From Ectocarpus siliculosus (taxonomy: Eukaryota; Sar; Phaeophyceae; Ectocarpales; Ectocarpaceae), in assembly GCA_000310025.1 (NCBI GenBank), contig FN649741.1, positions 6,336,176-6,367,703 on the forward strand: a stretch of 31,528 nt of DNA. The letters run 5' to 3'. The notes under the pieces were generated by a model. It saw only the letters and a list, made by a program, of their open reading frames with translations. It was not told the DNA's origin and did not search any database. Below, in pieces: positions 2,190 through 31,507 of this stretch. A program made the translations under genes and the position numbers. The first letter of the stretch is position 1. Every line of letters begins with the position of its first letter.

Positions 2190-2240
2190 GGCGGGGGGGG
2201 GGGGGACTATGTGTCCAGAAACGATTTGAACGTTACCCTT
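2190..2240 (+). repeat. G-run plus TATGTGTCCAGAAACG motif, copy 2
   Basis: Direct-orientation copy of the motif at 535-590. In copy 1 the motif precedes the TACCGCC array, while here it follows the array, so together they frame the block 535-2240. Confidence 0.75.
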
Positions 2241-2568
2241 GGTTGTATGCATATGGGGGAAGAGAAAGTGTCGAAGACACGGCAAGCTGCCGATGACCAT
2301 AACTCGAATTGCAAGCCTTCCAGAGCACTCTCGAAAGTGCGGATTGAATAATGAGGACCACCTGTTCCAGCCGATACCTAGCGCATGTGTTTGATGTGCG
2401 CTCGCCAACAGGTCCCTTCAAAACCTACACCACCTCCTGCTTCCTCTACCCCCCACTCGTCTTTCTGCATCTAATGGTTGTATTTGTTGCCTTTGAGGAC
2501 CTGCGGGCCGCACGCGCGCCAGACACGCGCACTGAACTGTTCCGTGTTCCCGGGAAATGCGATGTGTG

Positions 2569-3296
2569 TTAAGGCCGCACTGGGGATCGCAGTACTTCCT
2601 CTTCGAAAAAGCAGGAAACGCCTGGAAACGCCTGCATATCTCGGTTTTCCAAAGTCTAACTCCAGTACGAAACTACCATCGTAAATTAACCGTCCGCAGC
2701 GGTCGCTTGTGTACAATGTTAGTAGCTGAGGTTGTATCCCTTGCGATACACTACAGACTAGCGGTCCGCGATTTTCCAAACGATCCTTCTATCATCGAGT
2801 TCGGTGAGCTACAAGCTAGATTTTTGAAGCTGCTGTGCGGTCCAATTTTGAAACGCTTCAAGCACACGGTGAACACGAATCACCGCCTATGTGAGTGTAT
2901 GGGGCCGCGAACTTCAGCGCAGCTCTTCCCTCACATATCCAGCTGGTCGCCATTGTCCATTTGAATGTCCAGGGTCATGTATATGCATTTCCAGCCTTTA
3001 GGCAAAGGTGCTTGAAGCGTTTCAAAATTGGACCGCATAGCAGCTTCAATAATCTGGCTTGTAGCTCACCGAACTCGATGATGATAGAAGGATCGTTTGG
3101 AAAATCGCGGACCGCTAGTCTGTAGTGTATCGAAAGGGCTACAATCTCAGCTGCTAACATTGTCCACAAGCGACCGCTGCGGACGGTTAATTTACGATGG
3201 TAGTTTCGTACTGCAGTTAGACTTTGGAAAACCGAGATATGCAGGCGTTTCCTGGATTTTTCAGAGGAGGTACTGCGATCCCCAGTGCGCCCTTAA
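2569..3296. mobile_element. Foldback/MITE-like element with about 290-bp inverted arms and TTAA ends
   Basis: The left arm 2569-2865 and right arm 3008-3296 are inverted copies, roughly 93% alike by eye, around a 142-bp spacer (2866-3007). Both outer ends read TTAAGG(C/G)CGCACTGGGG, so the element is bounded by TTAA, the target duplicated by piggyBac-type transposases. Differences include an extra TGGAAACGCC-type copy in the left arm and one extra ATC codon in the right. No transposase is encoded. Membership in the piggyBac group rests on the TTAA alone and is only a suggestion. Confidence 0.85.
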
Positions 3297-5640
3297 GACC
3301 CAACGACACGGAACATGGAACAGGGAATTCCGAGTTCCATGTTCCCTGTTCCCTGTTTGGTCTAGACTGCATATACGCCCTCAGACATACACGCCCTCAG
3401 TATCTAAAAAAACGAGTTGGTGAACAACATGATTGCTATTTTGACTCCGTGAATGGAAAGCCGATCCAAAAAGGCCAAACAATGCAACTCTCTTGGGTTG
3501 CGTTGACTATCTATGCATCCCGATCGTCTTTGCCTAAGCGATGTGCGTGCGTTCTCTCCTTGCCATGGGTTTGACCAGATCAGTTAGCCCCACGCTTTGG
3601 AGAGGCAACAGCAGCATATTTTCCCACAAGTGCTCACCTGCTCACCCGTGGTCGAACGCAGTGAATGGTTGACGGTCGGAATACCCTTTCTAGGAACATT
3701 CCTTGGGAAGGTGCAGCTCGTGCACAGCAACCTAGCTTTTCACCCTTACGAACCTAGCGCTTGTACCGTACACAGCAACCTAGCCCTTACCACCTCTTAC
3801 GCCGCGGCTTAGGCGCACACGAAGAGCACCTGATCCATCGTTCATCGTTGGTGAAAAAAAAATAGGTTTACGACCTGTGTACTGAAAAATGACGCCGGGT
3901 ACTTGACGCTTGTATGCATCCTTTTGTATGTAGTTGAGCGAACATGTCGTGGTGGCGTCGATGTACCGGCAAGAGCGATATGCCCGACCTAAAGTAAAAT
4001 GCCGTGGTGGCTCTACGAACAATACGGATACACTCGCAACAGAGGTCACGACGACACACATTGTGCTGGCCACATCCCCTTGATCGGTTCCCTTCGCAGC
4101 AAACGGCGAAATCGATCGGTGTGTTACATATCTATTACCTATATCTATTGCATACGAGTAGTTTTTTCGGCTCTAAAATATCTTCCATCAATTGACCCCA
4201 AGCTTCGTACTGCAGCTCTCACCCAGCGACGCTGTCGAAAAGCAGGTGCTGGAGCTCCAACGTTTGGTCCTGCAGTAGGGCTGGTCGCGCGTCCGTGCCT
4301 GCAAGGTGGGTGGGTGGTGTGTTGTTGCCTTGTGACAATTCAACTTCAAAGGCAGAGTGTGCGGTGTGCGGCCCACCGGAGCGACAAAAGTCATGCCGAT
4401 CACACCCTTGTCAAAAACGCAATTGGATGTGAAGGAACTCCCAAATTCCCAGATATGGTTTCCTCTCTCAGCTCTCCCTGCTGCTGCTTGCTGCTGGCTG
4501 TTGGCTGTTGGGCAGTGGTGGTTCGATCCACGGCCAGAGGGGGTCCACGATGTCAAGGGTCTTCGTGTTGCTGTGTTTTCTTCTGCCAGCTGGAGTGCAT
4601 ACCTTCGTGGGCCATCACCATGTCGTGATCGGGAGAAGAACAGCGAGGTGCCGATCGATGCTCATGATTTCGCGTGACGGCAGTGTGTGTAGCATGATCT
4701 CCTCTCTGTTGATGGTGTTGACGGGTACAGCAGTACTGCTGTAGCTGCTGCACGCCAGCCCCTCTCCTTTCGAAAGGAGCTTGTTAGGCCTGTCTACCAT
4801 CCCAGCTTCTTTGTCCTGTGTCTTCCGGCCTGATTCCTGCGGTTACCGCTGTGTTCAACTCCATGGCCGCGCGAAGAAGGTTCCGTACCATGCTACAGCC
4901 ACCGCATTCCTTGCCGTGCTTCACGCGACCCAACCAGGAAACCACAGTCTAGGCTAGACTACGGCTGTCATAGAGCAAACAGGGTACTCTGTACAGTGCA
5001 GTGTAGTGCTTGTGTACCACACAAGTTTCCTTTACAATGTCGGTGATCTGCCGCTGTGGCGTGGCTGCATGTGAAGAAGGCACAACCAAACAACTCCAAG
5101 CAATCGCAGTGTATCGTACCATACTGGTAGGAATCGGTCAACGTAGTTCATGCACCAGCAACATGGTCTAAATACTACTGTGTACTCCGCCGATGGGTAT
5201 CTACATTCAATTTGTACCCCATCATACACCGACATTGTATCGGGCAAAGCGTACTTGTGACGATGCAGGATCCCAAGCGATATGTATTTCGCGTGTGTTT
5301 CCATGTTCCATGCTCCCGGCAGCACCCTCGTGCTTCTTCCTCGTTCCCTTTTCAAGAGCATCCTCGTGGTGTGCTCCGTTCTTCTACATGTACTCGGATT
5401 ATGCATGTCAGTTGTATGTACTTCCTCTCATCCCGTGTTTGTGCCAACAGTACTCAGGGTCAGTGCAGAGCAGACACCGCCCAGCGTACCTAAAATGAAA
5501 ACGTCTGAAACCTCCAAAACCGTCCCATGTGCCCCGGCGGCAGCAGCGGCAGCGACATCACGCAACAGGCACCATCAGCAGCATGGACTCAAGCGGCCAC
5601 GCCACCACCACCAGCAACTAGATGCTGCACGGAGCTGCGC
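3297..5640. other. Intergenic stretch without a recognisable gene
   Basis: Only short ORFs without recognisable domains were seen. There is an imperfect inverted GGAACATGGAACAGGG-type block near 3310-3355, a duplicated CAGCAACCTAGC near 3736 and 3774, and CAG/CTG-rich patches near 4480-4750. The right end presumably holds the promoter and 5' UTR of the methyltransferase gene, but I cannot place a TATA box or start site with confidence. Confidence 0.6.
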
Positions 5641-8600: not shown

Positions 8601-11600
8601 CTCCAGCGGCCCGTATGAAGGGCGGGGCCCCAAGGAGCGCCTGGCGGAGGTGGCGTTTGTGACGGCGCTGGCGGGAGGCTCTCTCGCCCTGGGGCTAGGC
8701 ACACCCGACCAGGTGGCGAACGGGGCTTTCGCGGTGTTGCTCAGCATACCCTTGAGGTGATTCTTCTTCTTGTTCGTGTTGTTGTGTTTTTGAGTCTGCA
8801 TCGACCGCGCTGAGCAATGAAAAGACATCATCAGTCTTTGCAGCGGGATAGTTGACGCGAACACGCTTTGTAGTCACAGGAGGGGCGCAGGAGTTGGACG
8901 AAAGCTTGCTGCTTCTCGAGTACAAAGAGTATGTGTGTGTTCGTTTGCGGAGGGGCGCAGGAGTTGGACGAAAGCTTGCTGCTTCTCGAGTACAAAGAGT
9001 ATGTGTGTGTTCGTTTGCGGAGGGGCGCAGGAGTTGGACGAAAGCTTGCTGCTTCTCGAGTACAAAGAGTATGTGTGTGTTCGTTTGCGGGTGCTAAGAC
9101 ATGTTGTAGCTTCGGGTGAAGCGTCGTGTGTTCGCTCTTGTGGGCATCGGCATCGTCCAAACTCAGCCCTCGTTGCGGTGGTCGCCACGAAGGATACGCA
9201 ACAGCGGTCAGGGGCTTTGTCCGTCGATTCGCCGACATTTTCTTCTCGTACACCGAATCCACTGCTGTTTTGTGTTTCACTTGCCCCTTTGCACCACCCT
9301 CGCATTATGGCATGGTTGCCTGTCGTGCTTGCTGCGGTTGTGTGTGACTGCTCTGTGCCGAATTCTCCATCCTCGTTTTCGCTTTCCCTGAGCTCGTCAA
9401 CCAGGTTACCGCTTTTTTTTTGCCTTTTTTTTTTTGCGGTAACCATGAATGGTGGTCGAGTAGATAATGTTGTGCGGGGTCGAGAACCCTCACTCCGCGC
9501 AAAGGGGGGTCATCGCACCACGTTGTGTTAAATTGGTCAAGCACCCTCGAGGCAGTTACACAGTGCCTACAACTGCCTCTGGAAGTCAAAGCACAAAAAA
9601 AACATTTAGTCATACGCAGCTGTCATCCGTACGGAAGGAAGGAAGCACAACATGCCGAACACCCTTAGCAGGATGCAGCGCACCCTTCATGCGACTCGCC
9701 GAATACCTCACGGCGCTTCGCGCTTGGTGATGTGAGAGCCTGGTCCGGTGAGAACCCGGCGTGCTCCGTCCCGGCTTTGTAGGGATGCGAGGTCAATGGT
9801 CTAACGACTACGGCATGCACGACTATGAGTACACACACCCTACTCTCTCTCTCTGTCTCTCTCTCGTTGCCACCGCTTCTCTCCGTCTTGACTTTCCTCT
9901 TCTCTCCCCCTGCCTTCGCTCTCCCCACACCCTCACACACGAAACCGTTTCGCATTCGCGGGACATGAATGCCGCTTCCAACCCCCAGAGACTTCTTTAT
10001 GACGAAGCTGGTTCAGCTGAAGAGGTACGCGCTGACGCCGGTGGTTGACCTTATCAACCACCAGAGCGGGATTGACAGCGACGTCTCCTACAACTACTTC
10101 TACGGCTACTTCGCGGTCACCACTCAGGTTGGTAGATGCCCAGGGAGGGCAGGCAGGGGGTCCCGTATAATCGCTTGCTAGGGTGTGCGCATGTTTTCGG
10201 GGAGTAATCCTGCTATTGATTGGCGGTCACCACTCAGCTCTGTTTTTTTTTCGTGGCTTTTGTAGATGTCGTGGGGGGGAACGTCCGTTGGCGTAATGTC
10301 TCAGCTCCTCCTCCTTCAGCCTTCCTAACCTGCCCGGTGTCCCTTGTTTGTCGTTTCATCACACGTTATATTTTGTTTTGCCTTGCTTCCTTTGGGGACT
10401 CGCGTTTCCACCCTACTTTCAGAGGGGGTGGACGGCCGGGGAGCAGGTGCTCATCAGCTACGGGCCGCGGTCCAACGACCACCTGCTCCGACGCTACGGG
10501 TTCGTGGAGCAAGACAACCCCAACGACGTCTACCGCATCACTGGGCTTATCGACAAGGTGGGGGGGGCTCATCATCTCGCTCCTGTTGCACATGCATCCT
10601 GCCGAAGTCTTCGTTGCTGCCGCGAAGTCCCCGCGCGAGAAAGCTGCGCGGGCAGGCAGCGCTCGTTTTGTTTTGGGCGACGGTTTTGAAGGGAAACGAT
10701 CACCTTGGTGATGACAAGGGCCTGTGTTGCTTGGTGCAGCCGTGAAGCCGATCCGCCGCCGGGTTGCTGTTCGGTAGGCGGCCTTAGCCTATGGTTGGTC
10801 TCACGAACGGAAGACGTTGCTCGCTGGCGTGCAAGCCCATCTCACCAAGTTGGTGGGAGTAGACCCGACGCAAGACATACCTATATACTGATCCCTTCGC
10901 CGAACATCACGCCCGGTATAACTGCCTTGTAGACGTGGCGGTTTCGTCTTGCTTGCCGGTGTCTCCGTCGATGGACGCAGCCTTGGCATCTCCCCCCCCT
11001 CCCCCCCTCCCCCTTCTTCCGCCTCCCCCCCGCCCCCTCCGGTGCAATGCAGAATACAATCTGTTTCGGTGTTTTCGTAGCAACAGGACGTTGAGATCGG
11101 CGCGCCTTCGTCTTGTTTGCCCCATGCTGCACCACACACAACCGTCACAAACAGGAACACCTCTTGTCCCCAGCTCACCCGCTGACCTGACCTGACCTGC
11201 CCGCACACACGTCTCGCGCCATTGCGTATGTCATTTGCGGAAAAACAACAACCGACAAAAGCTGTCCGACGTCTTGGGCAAGGACAGCGTCAGAGTGCTG
11301 CGAGAGTCCGGGGGGAAGCTTGGGACGACGGGGGACAATGCGGAAGGGCGGCCCGTGGAATCGGTTACCGTGGGGCGGTCGGGGCTTCTTGGGGAGAAGG
11401 AGGAGGGCAGGGTCATGCCGGTGTTTCGGTTAGCGGTCGTCAAAGATGACCAGGTGCGTTGGGGTGGAAGTGCGAGGTAGCCTGTTCTGGCGCCTGTTTT
11501 TTTTTACGTAGGATTTCTGTTTTCGCCCTTTGGTGGGTACGATTTTTTTTTTTGGGCTTTGGTGCTCACGTGGTCTTGTTCGCTCGGTCGGCGTTTGGTC

Positions 11601-17398: not shown

Positions 17399-20300
17399 AT
17401 GGGGAGAATGCTGGGCAACAACTATGTACTTTCGGCTACTCGGGCGTAAGAGGAGTCTCCGAGTGTTGTGGTCAAGCTCGGGCGTGACCTTAGAACGAAT
17501 CAGCGAGTCGAGGTGGAGACCCTCGAAATGGACGACACATTCATGCACGCCGCGAGCGTTCGCGAGCTGATGGAGTTTGAAGTGACCACCATGTGTTGCA
17601 CCAACACGCACTCGAACATCTTCCGGTTGGTCGACGTTCTGGCGAGCAAGAGCAAGATTTTCGCGGTCATGGAGCGGGCGGGCGGGGGCGACCTTTTCGA
17701 CGCGATCGTTGCGGAGGGCAGGTACATGCTGTAGATCTGTCGGTGTCGCGTGTTTCCAACGGCCAGCGCTGTGTCGACATCCTTTTACTGCGTTGAATTG
17801 GGACAACGTGTACTTTGGCTCATTCCGTGGCGTCGTGGCGGAAGTCGCCTGGAGCGTTGGGTTTGCCGGTGTTGATTGACGCCATAATTCTTCCGGGCGG
17901 TCAATACGTTGGTGCGATCTTGAGCTCGTTCGAACAGAACTCCGCCTTCTGCTTACTCCTCCCGTTACCCACTTGTGCAAGCGGACGTTTCCACCAAATT
18001 CGCGCCAAAGAAGTCCGGCAAAGACAGGGACCAGAACACATGCAAGCAACATGTTCGCACGCGCGGGCAGGAACAAAGGAGTGATACAGGGTGTGCCCTC
18101 CGCTACCTGCAGGCCGCGTACCGGGTCTCGAAGAGTGTCTGAGGTTTTGTTTCCTGCTACCAAGTACTCGGCATAGAGCTTAGCAGTCAACTACTGTAGC
18201 ACAACCCTTCATATCATCCACTCAAAATCAGGGTTTCGCGCGTGATTGTTCTTGTTCCGGTCATTGCCCGTTTCGATGCAAAGGCTTAAAGACGAGAACC
18301 TGGTGCACCACTACTTCCGGCAGCTTCTGGACGCTATCGAGCACTGCCACTCCAGAGGAATTTGCCATAGAGATATCAAGGTGAGGGAAAGGAAATTATC
18401 ACAGCCGCGGGCATCCAAGACTCCAAGCCACTGCAACAGCATTCCATCTGGGTACGCAGGTCGACAACATCTTAGAATACAACCCCACTGTTTTCGGACA
18501 ACACAATCTGGGAAACTCTGCTCCGAATGAACATGCCTTGGTACTACATACGTCTACATAGCTCATCCATAGCACGACCATTGAATGCTGTATATATTGG
18601 CCGTTTTTCCCGGTCCTGCTACAATCCTTCAGCCAGAAAACGTTCTCTTGGGCAAGGGAGGTGTGGTCAAGCTGACGGGCTTCGCGCTGGCAGGGCTGTT
18701 CGACCCATCCATCGGCGGTCACCCGGCCAACCTTCTTCACGCTACGTGCGGAACACCAGACTACGTCGCTCCTGAGGTAAGTGCGCCATGTGGTAGCCTC
18801 GCTGGCACCTGGTACAGATGCGTAGGCGAGTCTCATACAGTGCCGCATGCGATGCAACAGCTTCTACCTCTTTGGACATGATTTACGTCCCAGTTTTGGC
18901 GCCAACCTCTGACGACGGGTACGTGGCAGGTGGAGGGTTGGGGTGGGGGCGGGGCTGCGTTAGACGAGACATTAAACACGGAACCCATGCCGATACCACG
19001 AGATTTCCAGCCCTTGCTTGCGGAAGAGTTTCCTGAACGTTGTTCCTTTTTTCGCGAGTGGTGGATCTGTCTCCAGAGAAGTTTCGTGTACTTTGAGTTA
19101 CTGTAGCTTGCGACCATTTCGACCATATACTTCTTCGCTGTGAAGGGTGCAGGCAGGAGATGACCTGCTGGACCACGGTGGGAAGAATTTACCATGACAA
19201 CGACGAAAACAACAACGCATCCTCCGAACGACATTAGGTTATAGAGGGAGCGGGATACGACGGTCGACCGGCTGATCTTTGGTCGGCTGGGGTCACGCTC
19301 TACACCATGCTCGCCGGTTTCCTTCCCTTCGAGGCCGACAGCATTGAGGAAACGTTCGCAAGGATTCGGGTAAGAATTGCTCGTCTCGTGCGCATAGGTA
19401 CGAAAATGAACATCTGATTTTTCCGTATCTGTAGATGAGTTACGACGTACTGTGATAGCTCTCCCGTGGTTAGGGGCGTGAGCGACTTCTTGTACACACG
19501 TGACAATCGTTTTCGCACATGCAAACACAACGGCCAGTTTCAGAAACGAGAAATGCACGGGAGGATCGTTGGGGGGCGTGGGGGCGGTGGGGACCATGCG
19601 CCATGCCACGACCACCTGACCGTCGAGTACAGTTTCCGCGACACTCCCGCCCAATATGAGAGTCACCCAGCCCCACATAACAACTACCAACACGACATTC
19701 ACAACAACGCCACCCTAACAGGCTGCAGATTTCAAGCTCCCCCCCGAGATATCAGTGTCGGCATGGTCTTTGCTTGAGGGCTTGCTGGAGCCGAACCCGA
19801 GGAAGCGGTACACGATAGCTGATGTGCGGCTCCACCCCTGGATGGATCATCAACCACCGGACAGGTTAACGACCTCAAACAACGCAAAGGCTTTCGGCAG
19901 CGGAGAGAAGAGCATCACTCCATGCTCCGGCAGCAGCAGCAGCAGCAGCGAGAGCACCTGTGGCGGAGGCGTGGGGGGTGCCGACGCGTGTCCCAAACTT
20001 ATCCTAGATATCTGGAAGATCGACGACGACGACCGAAAAAGAGGCAGGGTCGGTGAAGGCAGAGATGGCAGGGATACAGGTGTCCAGATGGAAGCCGGCT
20101 TTAACAACTACAGTATCAGTGGGGGCGGGAGCGAATATGACGGCAGCGGCTTGCCGAACTCAAGTGGAAGATCCGACATGAACGACAGTCACTCGTCCTA
20201 CGCGGCAACATCGTGCTGCGGGATGGAAACTAGGTACAGCAGCGACGAGTCTTCGGCAGCGGCCAACTGTTACCACGATGGCAGCCGGCCGAAATCGACC

Positions 20301-21932
20301 TCGCCGTCGCTCCCGGCCTCGGCCTCAGTGCTATCATCTCACGACCGCTATCGTTTCTCCGACAGGCGCACTGATTTCTACCGGCGGTCGTCTTCCCCGT
20401 CGCTCGGATTGACCGACTCGCTCCCCCCAGCTTCCTCGGCCTCGCCGCCATCGTCCATGTCCCCGGCGGTAGCCTGGAGGTGCACGTGGGCGGACGTGAT
20501 GGGCAAGAGTGGGGGGCGCCAAGAGGCAGACCCCCCTCACGCTAGAGCTTCGACTCTGAGGGGTCGCCGCCGGAGGCGGGACAAGCACAGTTTCTCGCGG
20601 CGGCGGCGCGTTCAGGACCAGCGCCTCCACCCGGCCGCTTTCCGCGCCTCCTCCCGCCCGGAGGGCTCCACGGAGGAAGGGTGTGTGTGGGCGGGAAGCG
20701 AAGGAACGTTGTCGAGCTCTACGGAAGATGTGATGAAGCTTCGCCATAGTGAGGTGGTCAATTTCGCGGGGGGGTTCGAGACCGAAGTTCATCACCTCGC
20801 AGGACTCATAGAAAAGGCGGTGATCGTCGGCGAGCACTCCATCACGCCCAAGACGGAGCGAAATACACCCGGCAGTGCGTGGTCCTGTGCCGACCGGAAT
20901 TTGACCACGGACGCGCCGAAACAACTGCGGCCTGTTTTCTCCTGTATTTCGATGTCGCCGTCTAGGCAGCTGAAGTCTCGCTCGTCACCCCAGCGACGCC
21001 AGCAACAGAATGCAACCGTTATCGAAAAGCGTGCCCATATCTGGTCCGAAGGCTCTCCGTCAATTGTCTCCCGACGCTATGAAGTGCTTAGCACGTCGCC
21101 GCGAGTAGGGGGCTGTACTAGAAGCGCCAGCACTAGGATCGCCGTGGTATCGCCAGCAAGCCCAACCCCGGCGAGGTTGCGGTCGTTGGACCTAGGAACG
21201 AGGAGTGCTGCAAGGGACGCAGCGCTAGTCGGCGTGGAGACTCAACAGACCGATGGGATGGACATGACAGCGTCCGTCTCCACTTCTAGCACGTACAGCC
21301 CCTCGCGTTCCGTCTCGAGCAGCACCATCTCCCACACCATCTCCCACACCATCTCCCACACCATCTCCCGGCCCACCTGGAGGCTGGCCGAGACGAGGAT
21401 GTCGATGAGGAGGCTCGGGGCAACGCGCCTGTTGCTCTCACTCCCCGAGAGCGAACCCTTGAGCCTCGCGAAGGCGTTTCAACGCTCGCTGGAAGACCAG
21501 TCCGGGTGCGTCTGCCGCCTGCTGCCGAACCCCAAGCGGGTAGCGCGCGCGAGGGTCAAAGCCTGTCGTACGATCGCGCCAAGCCCAGGGGGAGAGACCC
21601 TTGTGGGCGTCGTATTGAGCGTGATGTACCCCGGGGCCACGACGCCTCCGACAGCGGATGGGTTTGGTGATAGCAGCTTCCGCGACGGGAACGAACGAGG
21701 CATCGTCGACGACCGCGGCTGTGGCCGCAACGGCGATAGCGGAGGTAGCAGCCGGAGTGAGACAAGCAGAGGTCGTGGTCAAGATCGTGGCCCGGCTGCC
21801 AACGGCCCGGATGAAAGGAGTACCGACGTCCTCATCGCTCTCAACGCAGGCACCATAGAAGCCTTTGACCTCCTCATTGAGGATCTGCTCTCGTTGACTG
21901 ATGGGCGATGGCGCGCCAACGTGCTGCTATAA
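17399..21932 (+). CDS. CAMK/SnRK3-like pseudokinase with long disordered tail (5 exons)
   Basis: Exons: 17399-17721, 18284-18380, 18633-18776, 19238-19369, 19722-21932, all joining in phase at GT-AG borders. Kinase landmarks: an ALASKSKIF-type beta strand, [13 protein letters not shown] (18366-18380), [31 protein letters not shown] and a DFKLPPE...HPWM C-lobe end, in the style of SnRK3/CIPK and other CAMK kinases. Key residues are lost: the VAIK lysine is Glu (VEVE, codon 17516-17518), DFG reads GFA (18678-18686), and the glycine loop is not recognisable and contains an in-frame TAA at 17447. A start downstream, for example 17529, would avoid the stop but drop the N-lobe strands. The tail of about 690 residues is Ser-rich with a NAF-like patch and a KA1-like end. 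If expressed, a non-catalytic binding or scaffold role is the natural inference; alternatively it is an early pseudogene. Confidence 0.75.
20751..20815 (+). other. NAF-like patch in the pseudokinase tail
   Basis: The tail reads VVNFAGGFE, then a short insertion, then LAGLIEK. This resembles the ISFSSGFDLS-LFE part of the NAF motif by which CIPK kinases bind calcineurin-B-like calcium sensors. The core NAF triplet itself is not clear and the spacing is longer than usual, so this is a weak match. Confidence 0.3.
21328..21371 (+). repeat. In-frame 12-bp coding repeat
   Basis: Four tandem ACCATCTCCCAC-type units encode Thr-Ile-Ser-His repeats in the kinase tail. The 12-bp period preserves frame. 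Confidence 0.93.
21430..21929 (+). other. KA1-like C-terminal segment of the pseudokinase
   Basis: The segment from [15 protein letters not shown] through [11 protein letters not shown], and again [19 protein letters not shown] to the C terminus, follows the pattern of kinase-associated 1 (KA1/PPI) domains. It shows an amphipathic helix, a basic strand, hydrophobic strands and a final helix ending in DGRW. A Gly/Arg/Asp-rich insertion (about 21640-21815) splits it. The domain call rests on pattern, not on a profile search. Confidence 0.45.
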
Positions 21933-22990
21933 CGGATGTGCGACTTACTACCGCCCGTTTTGAGATCATGGCTTGGGGGTTCGAGAGAGATTCTAGGCCG
22001 TACGTAAGGGTACGCACCCGAGCGAGTTCCGGTATAAGAAAAAAATAGGAATCGAACTACCGTAGGTTGGGCTTCATACGCTGGATTCTTTCAGACGTGA
22101 TGCATAGGGAGTCGCTACCGATCTGGATCATATTGCTATGGTAATGCTAGCCGAGCTTGGGACTGAGTTTGCAGCGATCTCACCAACAAATTTTGATCCC
22201 CGCCCGATGCACGTCGGGCAATGCTATCAAATCATATCATTCTCGAAGGAACTGATTCCCGATTGGCCCACACTGCACACCGCGCGTGGTGGAATAAGGG
22301 TACTCTGAGGGAGGTTTGGTTTCACTGCTTGGGCCGGTCTCCACCATTTCAGACATTACAGCTCTGGGGTGCGTTCATTTCGCCACCACGACCCACCCCG
22401 CCATGTATCGCTCACTTTTGAGAGATGGTCAAATACGACAGCGTGGTGATTACGTAGGCACAACAACTCACGGTTTGGATATCGAGGAACGACATTTTCC
22501 ATTTTGGATTCATTGATCAAATGAGCGCGTTTCGCAGAACTTTGGCAGGGTTCTCTACATGCCGCACATTTCGAGCGCACCCAAGCAAGGTTGGAAAAAG
22601 TAGTGAGTGCATTGAAGCCTGTCGCTAGCACCAAAAGAAAGCCAAATAACATGATTCCGAAAGTGATCATGGCGCGAGCTATGTAATATTGCCCAATTTT
22701 TTTCACACAACATTGTCGTGCGATGTCTCCTTAAAGAACGATCTATAAATGGCACAGAACGAATCCATTGACATTTTCAATATGCATCGATATCAATATC
22801 CGAACACACGCAAAAAAAAACTCCCAAAACATGCCTTTATCGCGGTATTCTCGTCAGATTGCTAAAAGGCCTTCGCTATGCATGCATGCAAGCAGTTCCT
22901 CTACGAGACCGTTGATCTGTAGAGGCTTCGCAGAACGTGTCTGTTTGTCGCCGTTTACTGGCGATCTCCTACACTATTTGACAAATGTAT
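21933..22990. other. Intergenic stretch without a recognisable gene
   Basis: Contains the 3' flank of the pseudokinase gene and only short ORFs without family features. No tandem structure was seen until the palindrome array begins at 22995. Confidence 0.6.
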
Positions 22991-22994
22991 TCAG

Positions 22995-23660
22995 CTTCCA
23001 TGGAAGTTAATACTGACTTCCATGGAAGCTGAATCTACTTGCATGGAAGCTACTCCCTACTTCCATGGTGACATGTTTTTACTTCCATGGAAGCGCTGCA
23101 CGACACTTCCATGGAAGTACATATGAAAAAGGTGGATGTGCCACTTCCATGGAAGTCGAATTTCCACGGAAGTCCTACTGGACTCTCATGGAAGTGGAGT
23201 AGCTTCCATGGAAGTTAAACTTAGACTTCCATGGAAGCTACGCAAAAGAGAGCAACGGCAGCTTCCATGGAAGTATTCAGCGTCGGGTATAGCTTCCATG
23301 GAAGTAAAATCACGGACTTCCACGGAAGCTCTTTCAAATAGCATGAGGTAGCATCCATGGAAGTCTGCAATGGTTTGCATCGCTTCCATGGAAGTGATCG
23401 ACGAACACTTCCATGGAAGTCATCGAAAGAGCTTCCATGGAAGTATATTGCGTCCAGCCAACTTCAATGGAAGTACCCCCAGCAAGACTTCCATGGAAGC
23501 AATCGAAAAAGTTTGCGCCTGCTTTCATGGAAGTCTTACCATCTTAGACCAGCTTCCATGGAGGTTGATTTCCACCGCTGTCACCTGCTTCCATGAAAGT
23601 TCTTGTAGTCAGCGTCCATGGAAGTGTTTCTGCTCCACGCCACGCCAGCTTCCATATCGA
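22995..23660. repeat. Array of about 25 CTTCCATGGAAG palindromes
   Basis: The 12-nt perfect palindrome CTTCCATGGAAG (NcoI site at centre) or a near variant begins at about 22995, 23017, 23038, 23060, 23082, 23106, 23144, 23161, 23183, 23213, 23236, 23272, 23303, 23327, 23352, 23383, 23408, 23432, 23462, 23488, 23522, 23553, 23588, 23613 and 23649. Thirteen are exact; most others differ by one or two bases. Start-to-start distances are 21-24 bp for the first five, then 17-38 bp. Spacers are unrelated to each other. Flanking bases are usually A/G before and T/C after. Confidence 0.97.
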
Positions 23661-24233
23661 CGTCATCTCCGAAAAGTCTTACGGTGCAGGGTGTGCACGT
23701 CTCTCTCTCTCCGTCTGACGTCGAGATCAACTTTAATGAGTCGTGATAGCTGGATGTTCCTGGCTTAGCGCCGCTGCCTTTCCCACGCGTGAAGACGCCA
23801 CACATCAAGCCCCACCCCAACCTGCAGGGGTTTTCACACACACGTATCATGGTCTCGCACGCTAGCCTGGAACTGTAGTAGACACACCTATTATTATTCT
23901 CCTGGCGACGCCTCTCCCTCTGTAAAGGGAACCTCCTTTTGAAATTGCCCCCCCCGTGATCCAAACATGTCTGTCTGTCACTCGGTCTATCCGGCTGATT
24001 GGCTCTCTCCCTCTCCCTCGCACCCTAAGGACGATCAAAGCCACATAAACAATGCAGTATAATCTGTAGTCAATACTGGATATGCACGATATACACCATT
24101 ATATGTTGTTTGCTTCTTACTTTGCACTCTCGCCTACACGCACTCACACGTCTAATGCTACAAGGTGGTTACAGTAGTCAATTTTCGAAAAATATATTCC
24201 TCATTTTACTTCTCGTTTTCGATGTACACCCAG
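23661..24233. other. Intergenic stretch between the palindrome array and the retrotransposon
   Basis: CT-rich patches near 23700 and 24000 and short ORFs only; no recognisable gene. Confidence 0.55.
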
Positions 24234-24342: not shown

Positions 24343-24444
24343 TGTTCGTGGGTCTACGGATGGATATGGTTTGGATATGTTAGCCGTACGTACAAGTGTG
24401 ACGCAGATGGTGTAGAACCTTTTACGTAGGGGTACGGTGATGAT
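24343..24444 (+). repeat. Left LTR of the copia element
   Basis: 102 bp, beginning TGTTCGTGGGTCTACGG and ending GGTACGGTGATGAT. It differs from the right LTR only by an extra GGAT and one C/G change, which points to a fairly recent insertion. Confidence 0.8.
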
Positions 24445-24648
24445 GCACCGGGGCCCCCTTTTGTTGTGTGCAGCAGCCCTGCTGCCACTCCTCCTTTCTG
24501 AGCACGACAGCGCCCTGGGTACGGGCGTTGCCTCACCGTCTGAAGTTAATACACTACACAAACAATACCCGATAAGTACGCGGAGTACGGCCGACAAACA
24601 CTCTAGAGTTAAGAATATTTGTCCCTCGAGGGATAGCCGCATCGGGTG

Positions 24649-26090
24649 ATGGCTGCGTCGGACAGCAGTTCGGTCGAAGGGCTGGGGGAAGAGACCTCAG
24701 CCATGCAACAGCAACACGCCGAGGACCCGGCGATTGCGAGGCTGGAGGACCAGTTATCGCAGCTGATTAGCATAGTGATCGAGCTGAAGAGGAAGGAGCC
24801 TGGCGACGCCGTGGCGGGCGATGCCAGTAGGGGCGGCGGTGCTGCCGTCCCAAGCCAGAGAGTCCTTGCCGTCAGAGGGCGGCGGAGCATTTTCCCGGGA
24901 AGCGGCCCGTGATGGGCCAAATCACCCGTGGGAAAGCCGCTGGGACAACATACCGGGAGCGAGTCCTGGGGTTCCAGCGAGAGTGGGGCCTGGCGTAGGA
25001 GCTGACCGCGGGGAAGCGAGGGGGTTAAACCCCCCAGGTGAGATACCCGCAACTCGTGGTAACGGTGATTACATCGGTAGCTTCAATCACTCGAAGAAAG
25101 TGAACGTGGTGGCCCCTCGCCTTGAGGGGGGCCGCAGCAGCGGATTTAGAACGTGGCGAAACGCTTTCATCCAGGCCGCTAAGACCGTGGAACTAGACGG
25201 TCAATTCATCGGGAGTACTGAGAGACATGCCCCCGTGGGCGACCCGAACATGCCCACCTCCACACTTTACAATGACTTGCGCTACACTAGGAGCGAGGTC
25301 GCACGTGGGCTCGCTGCGTTCCACTTCATCACTACCGCCGTGGTGAAAGAAACCGACAAAGCGGTCGTCAGTAGTTGCGAAGGGGGTCCTCACGGAGCTT
25401 GAAAATTTTTACGACCCCGAGTCGCAGGGATCCAAACAAGCCCTGATGAAAGAGATGTTCCGCTTCTCGATCCCGGCACACAGCAGCAGCAATCAAATCG
25501 AGCACCTAAGCAAGCTCGAGCAGATATACATGCGCCTACGCGAAAAGGGGCTCAACGCTGACACACCATTTGTCCTCGCACACTTCGTCGACTCGCTTCC
25601 ACCCGAGTATCAACAAGCGAAGTTCCTGTTGGAGACGGCGACAAAGCTGGACAGGGGCGAGATCGTCAGGATCGTGAGCACGGTGCACGCGAGCCTCCCG
25701 GAGGGGAGGAAGGCCCCGAAGGGCCAGCGGAAGGCGGAGCATGCCGTCCTCGCGAGCGACGGTGGCAGCAGGGGTGGAGCGCCCGGCCGCAGCAGCGGCG
25801 GCCGCAACAAGGGTGGCGGCGGCGGTGGTGGCGGCCAGAAGGGGAAAGGGGGTGGCAGCAAGGGCGGTGGGGGCGGTGGTAGTGGCAACAGCGGCGGAGG
25901 CGGCGGCGGCGGTGCAAGTAGCATGCACGGCCGCTGCTTCCGGTGTGGAGAGAAGGGTCACCAGGCGGCCGCCTGTACCAAGCCCGAGCCCCTGCGATGC
26001 GAGAAGTGCCTGGGCTACGGACACGACAAGAGCACGTGCTCGTCCGAGCAGGCGGTGCTCGCGGTGGAGCTGCCGGTCTTGGACGCCACC
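24649..26090 (+). pseudogene. gag: Copia gag region with two CCHC zinc knuckles (frameshifted)
   Basis: The ATG at 24649 opens a Ser/Glu-rich N-terminus with a Leu-rich helix. The reading moves to a second frame near 24830-24900 (the part with FRTWRNAFIQAAKTVELD) and to a third near 25370 (ELENFYDPESQG onward). The third frame carries a UBN2/gag-like helical part (QIEHLSKLEQIYMRLREKG), a long Gly-rich linker (about 25760-25915), and two Cys-X2-Cys-X4-His-X4-Cys knuckles (CFRCGEKGHQAAAC and CEKCLGYGHDKSTC), which bind nucleic acid in the retrotransposon particle. Two frame changes disable the reading as one polypeptide. Confidence 0.88.
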
Positions 26091-27649
26091 GCACTGGACG
26101 TGGCAGAGGAGGCGCTAGTGGTCCGTGACTTCACAGGCGAGTGGAACAGAGTCGTTGATCGAGGGGGTGTAGAGCAGGCCAGGCAGGAAAGGTTTGTGGC
26201 CGATACCGGCGCAACCAACCACATGTGCCCGAGCGCTAACGCGTTCGAAAACTACCATGAGTGCGATCGACGTTTGAGTGTCGCCGCAGGGAAGCAAGCC
26301 TTCGCCATCGTAGGGTATGGCGACGTGAGGGTGACCATCGGTTCTCGCGTTGGGACCACAGACCTGTTGTTGACACGGGTCGCTCATGTGCCGGAGCTCA
26401 ACTACAACCTCGTGACCCTCACAGCCCTCTTGAAACAAACCAAGGGCCGCTTAGCCGCAGACGAGCACGAGTTGGAGGTGTTCGTTGGTGGGGGGGAGTC
26501 GGTGTACTTCCCTCTGTGGGGGGACCTGTTCGTTCAGACTGGTCACCGCATAGAGTCGGGTAGGGAACTAGCCTGTGCCATAATTGCTCCTGGTAACGCG
26601 AAAGCGAACCGCACCCCCGTTAACATCAACGACTTCCACTGCGCGCACGGCCACTCCCACGAGGTGCTGCTGAAGAACACGGCGAAGCAGCAAGGGGTGA
26701 CGCTGGTGGGCCAGCTCCGGGAGTGCATGGGGTGCTTGACGGCAAAGGGGCTATCCAAGCCCATCCCCAACAGGACGTCAACCCGAGCAGTTAAGAAACT
26801 GCAGAGAGTTTTCGTGGATTTGAGTGGGAAGGCAAGGGTGCAGAGCTTGGGGGGGAAGTGGTACACTCTCGTTGTAAGGGATGACTGCACGAGGTGGAAC
26901 CGCGTCTACTTCTTGAAAAACAAGTCAGACGCTGCAGAGGCATTCGAGAGTTACCTAGCGGAAAACAGGGCAGACGGAGCCCCATCCGAGGTCATGGTCG
27001 TGCGGTCTGACAACGGAGGAGAGTTTTTCGAGGGAGAGTTCGGAAAGCTGTGCCGCAAGTATTGCATCAAGCAGGAGTTCACCCCCGCATACAGCCTAGA
27101 ATACAACGGTGTAGCTGAGAGAGCACTGGGACTGATCAAGGATGCAGCACTAGCCGCCCGCATACAGCGCCGATTCTTTACCCCGAAGCACCAAGCTACC
27201 CCTCCCTTTGGGCCGAAGCCACAGCTTGGGCATGCAACGCCCTGAACTGCACCTCCACCACATCCAACCCGGACAAGAAATCGCCGTACGAAATGTGGCA
27301 CGGGCACCCACCTCCCCCAGAGGCGACGTACCCGTTCCTCAAACCCGCCGTATACAAGGTCAAGCGCACGCACAAGTCAGAGCCGAAAGCAAAAAAGTGT
27401 TTTTACCTCGGCCCTGGAATCAACACAAACCGTGATTGCGTGCGCATCCTGAACGAAAAACGTCAAGCGATCACCACTCGCAACTTGACCTGGCCATCTG
27501 TGCCCGCTGCCCCGACCGTGCACCCCCAGCCGCTGCCTCCCATTGCAGAGGAGGACGAGGAACTCACGACTGGGGAGCACGAGGGCGGGGAGGGTGCGTC
27601 ATGCCACGGTGGAGGGAGCGCGGAGGGAGAACCTGAGAATGGAGGTTGA
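26091..27649 (+). pseudogene. pol: Copia protease and integrase region (frameshifted)
   Basis: Continuing the gag frame, the protease active site is seen as VADTGATNHMC near 26200. The integrase zinc-binding HHCC pattern follows (HCAHGHSH ... CMGC), then the catalytic Asp in VFVDLSG, the second in VVRSDNGGEF and the Glu in NGVAERALG: the D,D,E triad is intact. The frame ends in TGA at 27243-27245. The expected next part (SYPSLWAEATAWACNAL, then KKSPYEMWHG) resumes in another frame from about 27184, so one indel lies there. That frame ends at 27649. Confidence 0.92.
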
Positions 27650-27869
27650 CACGACGGTAACGCCGGGGCCCGCGGAGCCGCCCGCGCGCGATGCGCCGGC
27701 GGCGCCGCCCGGCCGCGCCCCAGGAGTCGGGCGCGGGCGACGCTGGCGATGGCGCCCCCTCGAGCAGGGAGGGCGCGAGCGTCGCCCCATCTACCACGTC
27801 GACCGGGATGGCCGATGTGGGCGGCGGCGAGGACGACCGCCGCAGCAGCAGCAGCAGCCGCGGTGGCGG

Positions 27870-27907
<38 letters not shown>

Positions 27908-28150
27908 GTGGCGGCAGCGGCAGTGACAGCGGCGGTGACAGCGCAGCGGCAGCGACGCGGATATTCCGGCGCTCCGCGGGCCCGAGGAACGGAAGCTCGC
28001 CCGCTTTGGCGAGCCGGCCGAACTCACCAGCCGCTGACTCAGGGAGAACCCTCGCCGGAACACGAGGTACGAGTCGTCAACGAGTGCCGAAGGTCTGCTC
28101 GCCCGCCATGCGTCGGCGGCGGGGCTGCCCACCCTGCCCATCAACAGCAC
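27650..28150 (+). pseudogene. Low-complexity linker between copia integrase and reverse transcriptase
   Basis: GC-rich sequence with a (GCA)n tract near 27838-27905 that gives poly-Ser, poly-Ala or poly-Gln depending on frame. Two frames remain open for long stretches. The frame leading into the reverse transcriptase carries LLARHASAAGLPTLP just before 28170 but is interrupted by a stop upstream, so the join to the integrase part is lost. Confidence 0.7.
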
Positions 28151-29939
28151 GGAGGAGTACACCCACTGGATGCTCGCGTGTGTGGTCGACGTGGTGGAAG
28201 GGCTAGAGGCGAGGGCGGTGCAAGCGCTGCTGTGCGAGCGCGCGGAGGAGGCCAACATCGCGCGCCAAGAGGCCGAGGACTTCCTGCTGGGAGCGGAGGA
28301 CCTCGTGCTCAACTCTCCAGACGCCTTCGTGAGGGCCCTGGCGTCGACCGAGCTGAGTACAGAATCCCCCATAGGCAAGCGTCCGAGTGACGTTGAATCC
28401 CCCCCCATGACAGTAGCCGGCGTTGCCAAGTCTGTGTACAGAGAGGGATGGGAACAGACCATGAGGGAAGAGTTTGATGGGCACTTGGACACGGGAACGT
28501 TTTCGTTCGTAGACGGTACGCCAGAGGGGCGTAGACCTGTGAGTTCTAAGTGGCGTTTTACTTGGAAGACGAACAAGGAGGGGAAAATCGAGAAGTTCAA
28601 AGCGCGTCTGGTCGCTAGGGGTTTTTCGCAAATTCCGAATGTGGACTTCTACTCATCCTCCCCTTGCCCATCATCCGCATCCATTAAACTGATGCTTGCG
28701 GTAGCCAATGAGAAATCATTGAAACTCAACCACTGGGATGTCAAGCAGGCGTTTACACACGCTAAGTTAGACGAGGATGTGTTCTTGAGGCTCCCCGCGG
28801 GGTGCGGGGAAAAATCCCACAAAGTTGTGAAGGCTGAGCGTGCTATTTACGGCTTGAAGCAGAGCGGCAGGCAGTGGGGGTACCACGCTGCCGACACTCT
28901 TGTAGAAAACGGGTTCGAGCAGTGCAAGGCGGACCCATGCGTCTTCCGCAAGATGAAAGACGATGTCGTGGTGATGATTATCGTGATTTATGTGGATGAC
29001 ATTTTGGTGGCTGGGTCTGATGATGATTGCAAGGAGTTGCTCGCTTCCCTCAACAAGGCATTCCCCACCAAAGACCTTGGAGAGTGTGTGTGGTTCGACG
29101 GGTGTGCCGTTGAGAGAGACCTAGAGGCTGGGACCCTTAGAATCTTCCAAACCGCGTACATTGACAGCACCGTGAATCGCTTTGATGTGCAGTCGACCTC
29201 CCCCATCCCTGCTTCCCCTGGTGCCGACCTAGGGCCGAAGCGAGATGACGAAAGTGGAGGGGAGTGGCCGGTGAGGGAGGCCATCGGCAGCATGATGTGG
29301 GTGTCGACGTTCTCGCGCCCGGACATCTCGTTCGCTGTGCGTGCGGTAGCGCGCCACGCCCATGCCCCTGCCGAGAGGCACTGGAAAGCGATACGGAAGA
29401 TCCTCGCCTACCTCAAAGAGACGAGGGACCTCGGGATCACCTACAAACGGGGATCGGGGCTGGGGCTGGCGGTGTACGTGGATGCTAGCTACGCCGACGC
29501 TGAGGATAGGCGTTCGGTGTCAGGGCTGGCAACAACGGTTGGAGGGACCGTCATCAGCCACGGTAGCAAGACGCAAGCTATCGTATCTTTGTCGTCTACG
29601 GAGGCAGAGTACATTGCTGCCGGAGAGGGTGTGAAAGAAGCTTTGTTTGTGCGTGCAGTGCTTTCGTTTATTGCCCCAGAGACCAGTGGCGGTAGCATTC
29701 AGGTCCTTGGGGACAATCAGGGGGCCATGGCCTTGGTGCAGAACCCCCTTAGCTCAGCGCGTAGCAAGCACATCGACGTGCGGTACCACTTCATTCGTGG
29801 ATTGTTTAGGTCGGGGGACATCTCGATCAAATTTGTGTCGACGTCGGAGCAACATGCAGACATGCTCACCAAGGCTCTTAGCAAGAGCAACCTGCAGTAC
29901 CACCGGAAAAAGCTGATGAATTTGCCGGAGCTTCTGTAG
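28151..29939 (+). pseudogene. pol: Copia reverse transcriptase and RNase H (open frame)
   Basis: One uninterrupted frame of about 590 codons. The reverse transcriptase starts with the REGWEQTMREEFDGHL-type entry, KARLVARGFSQ, and DVKQAFTHAKL with the first catalytic Asp. YGLKQSGRQWG and YVDDILVAGSDDD supply the two metal-binding aspartates. RNase H follows: YVDASYADAEDRRSVSG, LSSTEAEYIA, DNQGAMAL and SKHIDVRYHFIR. Catalytic residues look intact. The usual 'TFAPV' stretch after the VD motif is replaced by YSSSPCPSS. It is labelled pseudogene because it depends on an upstream frame that is broken. Confidence 0.95.
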
Positions 29940-30249
29940 GATTTTTTAGCGCTTGGGGAAGGTCATGTATACCATGCGGGGAAAGATGCATTACTGTCGC
30001 GGGCTGTGTCCCATTGGCAGGAGTAGGAGGCTTGCCTCGCATTCTTGTCTTCGCCTTGGCCTTCCTGATAAGTGCGGCCGTTGTGATCCGCCGTGATAGC
30101 AATGGTTTGTGTTGGATGGGGTTTATTTTCGAGGGGTTTTGCCCGGGCGCCGGGTTTCCCCTCGACCACCGTATTGGCATTTTATTGATGTATCCGGGGT
30201 GTTTTTGCCCCACTGATGGTTAGTCACTTGCGTGAAGAGGCAGGGAGGA

Positions 30250-30347
30250 TGTTCGTGGGTCTACGGATATGGTTTGGATATGTTAGCCGTACGTACAAGT
30301 GTGACGCAGATGGTGTAGAACCTTTTAGGTAGGGGTACGGTGATGAT
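30250..30347 (+). repeat. Right LTR of the copia element
   Basis: 98 bp, the same sequence as the left LTR minus GGAT and with one C/G difference. It is preceded by the polypurine tract and followed at once by ankyrin-like coding sequence. Confidence 0.8.
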
Positions 30348-31142
30348 CTATGGGGCGAAGGGGCTTGCGCCGATGCTACCATAGCCGGGCGTCACGACAT
30401 TGTGGAGTGGCTTCGGGATAACGGCTGCCCTTGGGATGGAGGGACATGCACATCGGCCGCACTCGGCGGATTCTTCGATGGCCTTCAGTCGGCATTTGCT
30501 CAAGGATGCCCTTGGGACAGCCAATCCTCTTTCTTGGCCGCATGCAGAGGAGACTCGCGCATGCTTGAGTGACTCCGAGAAAAAGACTGCCCATGGGATC
30601 TAGTAGATGAAGGGGGTCCATGCGCCGGGGCTGCACGTGGCGGCCATCTTGAACTCCTGAAGTGGGCGAGGAGTAAAGGATGTCCATGGGACGAGCGAAC
30701 GTGTGCAGAGGCAGCAAAAGGCGGGCACCTAGAAGTGTTGCAATGGGCACGAGAGAATGGGTGCGAGTGGGACAGCGACACTTGCGCGGGGGCTGCCTGG
30801 GGACAGCACCTTGGGGTTTTGCGCTGGGTGAGAGAGAACGGCTGTCCTTGGGATAGACGGGCTTGCTCGAATGCGTCCAATCGGGGGAGCCTCAAGATCC
30901 TGCAATGGCTGCGTGGAAAGGGCTGTCCTTGGGACAGCGACACCTGCACGCAGACAGCCGCGCGCGGGCACCTTAGAGTGCTGATCTGGGCCTTAGCCAA
31001 CGATTGCGCTTGGGACAGGCGCCTTTCACGCGTGGCAGACGCCAACGGCTTTGGTTTCATCCGTCGCTGGGTGGGAAATCACGTTCGGCGGAACACTCGC
31101 AAGCGACCAATCAGCTTGATATCGAGTGGTGAACCGAGGTGA
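30348..31142 (+). pseudogene. Ankyrin-like (GCPWD-type) repeat protein, 5'-truncated, one nonsense codon
   Basis: The frame opens right after the right LTR and ends with TGA at 31140. About eight units of roughly 28-33 residues follow the pattern (G/D)C(P/E/A)WD-x-x-T-C-x-x-A-A-x-x-G-H-L-x-V-L-x-W-x-R. Such repeats are abundant in brown algal and some other protist genomes and act as protein-binding scaffolds. TGA at 30570-30572 sits exactly where the repeat calls for Trp (LE-W-LRE), a single TGG-to-TGA change. No starting Met or upstream exon is visible because the LTR abuts the first unit. The gene is therefore cut by the insertion and carries a nonsense codon, unless translation restarts downstream. 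Confidence 0.88.
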
Positions 31143-31365: not shown

Positions 31366-31507
31366 AATAATACCTCACGGCGCTTTGCGCTTGGTGATGT
31401 GTGATGTGAGAGCCTTGTCCGGTGAGAACCCGGCGTGCTCCGTCCCGGATTTATAGGGATGCGAGGTCAATGGTCTAACGTCTACGACATGCATGACTGT
31501 GAGTGCC
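31366..31507 (+). repeat. Dispersed repeat, copy 3 (truncated)
   Basis: Matches 9702-9835 (AATACCTCACGGCGCTT ... ATGCGAGGTCAATGGTCTAACG) with scattered changes, including a duplicated TGTGA. It lacks the left 300 bp of copy 2 and ends in a C18-type tract where copy 2 has CA/CT repeats. Truncation on one side with a simple-repeat tail on the other resembles non-LTR or SINE-type insertions. Confidence 0.88.

Follow-up and report, generated by a model that had tools for sequence, protein, structure and literature searches.

Arrays of short repeats beneath the termini are a known architecture of DNA transposons. In En/Spm, a short motif is repeated subterminally, and the TNPA sites act in cis for non-autonomous copies that are moved in trans (PMC2613891). 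The BED fingers of Hermes bind AAG(T/C) half-sites arranged in quasi-palindromes (PMC10368747), and the 8-bp target-site duplication usual for hAT elements is likewise recorded for Zisupton (PMC12730594). It has been reported that the piggyBac transposase uses a dimer of one of its domains to bind palindromes at the element ends, one to three per end, and that one subterminal site restrains transposition in piggyBat (PMC11707139). A survey of Ectocarpus describes giant KDZ elements with nested elements, reports an accessory protein (ParB-like or methyltransferase) for the 21.5-kb Sola1-1_Ec32, and places 51 families with 9109 copies in the DNA/Unknown class (PMC12477816). In this study, we analysed a palindrome array in Ectocarpus siliculosus for which the original prediction knew of no family that explains it, a statement that proved too strong: the subterminal-array architecture is known, and what is new are the unusually dense, perfect palindromes.

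The window, that is, the whole stretch of DNA analysed, comprises 31,528 nucleotides (G000:C16:6336176-6367703). A motif scan of the window recovered 23 copies of CTTCCATGGAAG with at most 2 mismatches at 22995-23624 (13 exact, 8 with one mismatch and 2 with two) and none in the rest of the window, against a mean of 1.40 and a maximum of 5 in 100 shuffles. Two extra partial palindromes are legible at 23060 (CTTCCATGGTGA) and 23649 (CTTCCATATCGA), and with them the predicted count of about 25 is a fair one. When the partial copy at 23060 is included, the gaps between neighbours range from 5 to 26 bp and the first five spacings are 22, 21, 22, 22 and 24 bp, both as originally described; otherwise the gaps are 5-32 bp. 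Satellite DNA was considered and rejected, as a whole tandem unit is not conserved: Tandem Repeats Finder returned three repeats with periods of 21-25, all short and weak, and the spacers of the array are otherwise unrelated to one another by eye. Instead of standing alone as a satellite, the array occupies one end of an element that belongs to a DNA transposon family; the parts of the window copy are listed in Table 1. We propose, with a probability of about 0.75, that it represents one end of an old non-autonomous DNA transposon scattered through the genome, and that its palindromes would most likely be sites for a transposition protein.

Table 1. Parts of the transposon remnant, in window coordinates
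Feature	Position	Strand	Basis
Left terminal inverted repeat CGATCTCCTACACTATTTGACAAATG, core CACTATTTGACAAATG at 22972-22987	22962..22987	+	Same terminus in other copies; inverted at their other end
Subterminal array of RCTTCCATGGAAGY palindromes	22995..23660	.	23 palindromes with at most 2 mismatches, and partial ones; other copies have homologous arrays
Internal region of the element	23661..24027	+	Repeated in other copies
Whole non-autonomous DNA transposon remnant, right end missing	22962..24027	+	Relatives L016, L019 and L020 extend about 280-300 bp further, to a right terminus

The original prediction had proposed to compare the genome-wide density of the motif with expectation, and this comparison bore it out: in the 189.5 Mb searched (492 contigs), exact CTTCCATGGAAG occurs 1212 times versus 6 times for the reversed control, and among the places listed most exact matches sit in clusters. 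Of at least 111 candidate places in the genome for 22960-23680, at least 40 were scored, and many of those listed have common boundaries. Copies that reach the left end mostly begin at window 22961-22968, with one at 22953, and the left flank (22250-22961) matched nothing else in the genome search except for 38 bases over the terminal repeat. Many copies match the first 340 bases only, and in several the left end recurs in inverted orientation about 0.5-1 kb further on. On the inner side, five places cease matching exactly at 24027, and further copies match shorter parts of 23661-24027. The element has terminal inverted repeats around CACTATTTGACAAATG, and two-ended copies have a palindrome array at both ends. 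Copies of this family (family 1) measure about 0.45 to 2 kb, more with insertions, and are dispersed over many contigs.

The family has left ends with the sequence (C)GATCTCCYACACTATTTGACAAATG and right ends that run GGGTAACCTACACTATTTGACAAATG in the inward direction; in the window-type relatives L016, L019 and L020, the right end, around CAATATTGGACGAATG, diverges more. With at most 3 mismatches, the terminal pattern was found 46 times forward and 40 times reverse in the genome, and 0 times in the reversed control. Many elements are flanked by an 8-bp target-site duplication. Among 16 family-1 copies with both ends, the best flanking 8-mers agreed at 8/8 positions in 8 copies, 7/8 in 3, 6/8 in 2 and 5/8 in 3, so that 8 of the 16 are without a perfect duplication, whereas mismatched pairings of flanks from different copies gave 8/8 in 0 of 240 and at best 7/8, in 10 of 240. 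The scan let the distance between 8-mer and core vary within limits on both sides. Perfect matches lay at distances of 6-14 bases on one side and of 10-14 bases on the other, so that the boundaries are not fixed, and some shared flank stretches exceed 8. C443 and C188, whose flanks equal those of C21 and C24, L034 and L035 (equal to L032) and C14, where the right end was not caught, were left out of the scan. L016 and L019, two of the relatives whose right end is divergent, showed no shared flank, and the count including them is 8/18.

A sister family was recognised by arrays at C1:826200-831540 and C3:4078480-4079652, which have spacers in common, and its termini (CAGTCCTCTACATTACTGTCC and GGGTAATATACATTATTGTCC) are related to those of family 1. 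The ends of its copy on C12 lie 24.8 kb apart (C12:1738668-1763444) with the exact duplication GACCAAAT, and those of the copy on C76 lie 6.8 kb apart with the exact duplication ACACAGCA(G). The 8-mer scan gave 8/8 in 2 of 4 sister copies. In L141, GAGTGAAA adjoins both ends if the right end is taken without its outer eight bases, a position outside the scan offsets; in L142 no duplication was seen. The part read of the 24.8-kb copy (1743000-1751000 and the two tips) contains a Copia-like polyprotein frame by eye, and four other frames in it matched no Pfam family.

As to the superfamily, CACTATTTG at the left end first prompted a CACTA/En-Spm reading. However, the termini begin with CGATCTCC and GGGTAACC, and this superfamily was excluded because the CACTA sequence lies about 10 bp inside and because the duplication is 8 bp, not 2-3 bp. 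A first reading as a MULE with a 9-bp duplication was set aside when the duplication was re-read as 8 bp. The flank scan covered 8-mers; by eye, the flanks of C12 and L042 share exactly 8 bases and those of C76 share 9. Duplications of MULEs measure 9-11 bp, the target of piggyBac is TTAA, unlike the 8-bp duplication here, and hAT termini are of the CA(A/G)NG kind. The termini observed are CAGTC / GGGTA in the sister family and CGATC / GGGTA in family 1, and one terminus, which begins GGGTAA, is a difference from Hermes. The half-site GGAAG(T/C) agrees with that of Hermes over four bases (PMC10368747), a lead and no more. Compared with En/Spm, the subterminal repetition of a short motif is alike, but the duplication is 8 bp instead of 3 bp and the motif is a perfect palindrome. 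In size, and in holding a Copia-like frame by eye, the 24.8-kb copy recalls the giant KDZ elements with their nested elements (PMC12477816). By these comparisons, the 8-bp duplication fits hAT and Zisupton and the giant size fits KDZ, and hAT-like and KDZ-like affiliations are both candidates. The main text of the Ectocarpus survey contains neither "subterminal" nor "palindrom", and the family might be listed in its library under a different name; the element may help to sort the DNA/Unknown families (PMC12477816).

Alignment of 20 left ends showed palindromes at homologous places and plainly homologous spacers. The claim that the spacers share no sequence holds by eye inside the window array, but not between copies of the element, in which homologous spacers recur in the same order. 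For a test of conservation, the palindromes were delimited from the window sequence only, after which the window copy was taken out together with L034 and L035. Pairwise identity among the 17 copies was 0.868 in palindrome columns (144), 0.710 in spacer columns (165) and 0.80 in terminal columns (33), values from a single alignment in which sites of related copies are not independent. The gap between palindromes and spacers was present for each of the four bases, and none of the 308 circular shifts applied to the mask reached it (largest 0.149 vs 0.157 observed); an earlier version with a partly circular definition had given 0.883 vs 0.708. Mirror positions do not change in a coupled way. Double changes at them numbered 12, and 4 of these were symmetric, which equals the chance rate of 1/3; about 24 doubles are expected from the single rates, but the two-mismatch limit itself eliminates some doubles, which leaves the symmetric share as the informative figure. 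As this share is at the chance rate, it gives no hint of correction copied through hairpins.

In fact, conservation extends over a unit of 14 bp, RCTTCCATGGAAGY, with the outer R and Y at 94% each among 829 sites of the fetched loci, and the logo of these sites is nearly flat past it; it is composed of two inverted GGAAGY half-sites. In the pooled set, fewer palindromes than expected have AAGC on both sides (75/761 vs about 119 if independent, in sites that are not independent), and the window has 0/23, but such palindromes are not scarce in the sister family (13/121). A half-site preference against double AAGC may be taken from these counts as a lead only, given the non-independence of the sites. 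The spacings of palindromes, with related copies counted repeatedly, peak at 15-16, 20-22, 24-25, 30-31 and 35-36 bp. The spacing of two helical turns suggested originally thus holds in part only. Helical phasing was rejected as no single phase appeared; a count over 81 clusters, formed from 789 pairs, pointed to a period of 12 bp, a value at the limit of the range tested, and this result was not relied on, short spacers having been over-merged by the clustering.

By analogy with En/Spm, Hermes or piggyBac, the palindromes are best read as putative subterminal sites for a dimeric transposition protein. Each 14-bp unit would be bound by a dimeric or paired-finger protein that an autonomous relative provides in trans. 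With dozens of sites, each end would gain in avidity and the two ends would be brought together, and a transposase would then cut at the terminal repeat and insert the element with an 8-bp stagger. If the spacers merely hold the sites apart, they would drift and the palindromes would be kept. The platform for a dimeric protein that the original prediction had offered would thus remain the best reading of the palindromes, as part of the end of a mobile element and not as a free platform. On the other hand, the precedent of piggyBat means that the arrays could instead restrain the element. With many palindromes and copies of differing ages, the ends form a comparative set in which site number, spacing and half-site choice become readable.

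It has also to be considered that the arrays are a passive relic, grown by local duplication, whose apparent conservation comes from conversion or slippage between copies and to which nothing binds. Local tandem growth exists indeed: in L005, 4434-4612 repeats a higher-order unit, and in L073 (G000:C30), 2201-3391 consists of 11 tandem copies, with a period of about 116 bp, of a transposon terminus and its first palindrome, apparently a satellite born from a transposon end; the window copy, moreover, is truncated. Nevertheless, we hold such an origin unlikely, as symmetric double changes (4/12) do not exceed chance, the spacers of one array are unlike each other, and the outer R/Y preference constrains a 13th and a 14th base. 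Slightly less probable again would be a separate lineage of DNA transposons, comprising giant as well as miniature forms, in which the ends would be recognised through dozens of identical dyad sites, not through one terminal repeat, by cooperative loading of an element-encoded dimer. An accessory protein of the ParB-like or methyltransferase kind, as reported for Sola1-1_Ec32, could play this part and might mark the element as well. Dense clusters of perfect dyad sites, and the position of the window array, some 1 kb downstream of coding sequence judged kinase-like by eye, might suit a dimeric host factor acting in gene control, chromatin or nuclear positioning on arrays that the transposon merely spread; yet the arrays lie at element ends in many contigs and a transposition role suffices without one for the host, which makes this explanation distinctly improbable. 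We give very little credence to array transcripts that fold into alternative hairpins, as the original prediction had also considered, or feed silencing. Any two palindromes could pair in principle, and intact Ectocarpus transposons have been tied to small RNAs (PMC12477816), but no Rfam family exceeded the threshold in the window, symmetric change is not in excess, and no finding favours RNA. Repeated insertion of mini-palindromes of 12-14 bp, each an independent event, at the hot spots of the original prediction would leave a fixed palindrome among spacers unrelated within an array, but is contradicted by the joint inheritance of palindromes and spacers in the 20 aligned copies and has next to no probability.

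For the transposon end with putative protein sites that we prefer, a transposase or DNA-binding protein was located in none of the copies and frames searched. Among eight frames of L005, which is at least 5.4 kb long, and two frames of L073, none passed the Pfam cut-off (best ComJ, E 0.0035). As autonomous copies, L073 and L074 were rejected for want of a recognisable transposase frame, C138:86293-94565 for the Copia-like frames seen inside it by eye, and C25:2305168-2313096 for what is probably an insertion too. The KDZ models PF18758 and PF18803 had 0 genome matches, and the control models also had 0. Of hAT transposase, 20 places were listed in the genome; the five fetched, one of which (L145) is cut by the contig end, lack a palindrome array and have no more than single matches to the motif, with 2-3 mismatches. 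The one zf-BED match contains stops and lies away from known arrays. None of the 45 places matching MULE PF10551 falls within known element spans, and two MULE copies on C1 lie on a contig without exact motif outside 826200-831540. The old copies may have outlived their source protein. One of the hAT copies, L147 (G000:C11:2344900-2348400), contains the 8-mers ATATCGAT and GATATCGA 10 and 9 times on both strands, perhaps another palindromic end array.

An origin from giant viruses was rejected, with 0 exact matches in viral contigs for the double palindrome or for the terminus plus motif. In prokaryotes, 66 stretches of bacterial records (L075-L140) have two CTTCCATGGAAG near each other; 52 of these pairs are exactly 21 bp apart, mostly around a TATAAT-like stretch, in records whose names we took as actinobacterial. 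They look like a conserved double operator, and their layout is unrelated to the element arrays. In Segatella maculosa, CTTCCATGGAAG arrays have a period of 41-42 bp. In the literature, the sole match to the literal motif among the search results was unrelated work on Bermudagrass.

Several other features were seen in the window. Within 624-2012, a hAT-like element of 1373 bp (632-2004) has a 10/10 terminal repeat (CAGGGTATTC) and an exact 8-bp duplication (GAAAATAC), and 27 of the 35 plus-strand ACCGCC of the window fall in it, in arrays with uneven spacers near both ends; it is of the same architecture as the palindrome element with a different motif. A Ty1/copia element with integrase and reverse transcriptase domains occupies 24343-30345, with short direct repeats from near 24348 and 30255. 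The kinase-like coding region has introns and extends over 17500-21932, and its last long frame (19755-21929) matched no Pfam family. At 30376-31060, a peptide of the kind GHLEVLQWARENGCPWD is repeated, which we take by eye to be ankyrin-like; the two overlapping open frames there had no Pfam match. A long inverted repeat (foldback) was noted by eye at 2581-2900 and 3000-3300, and three identical 70-bp tandem units stand at 8879-9090. By eye, a stretch around CACGGCGCTTCGCGCTTGGTGATGTGAGAGCC occurs three times (1-110, 9660-9780 and 31376-31450), once inverted and once slightly changed.
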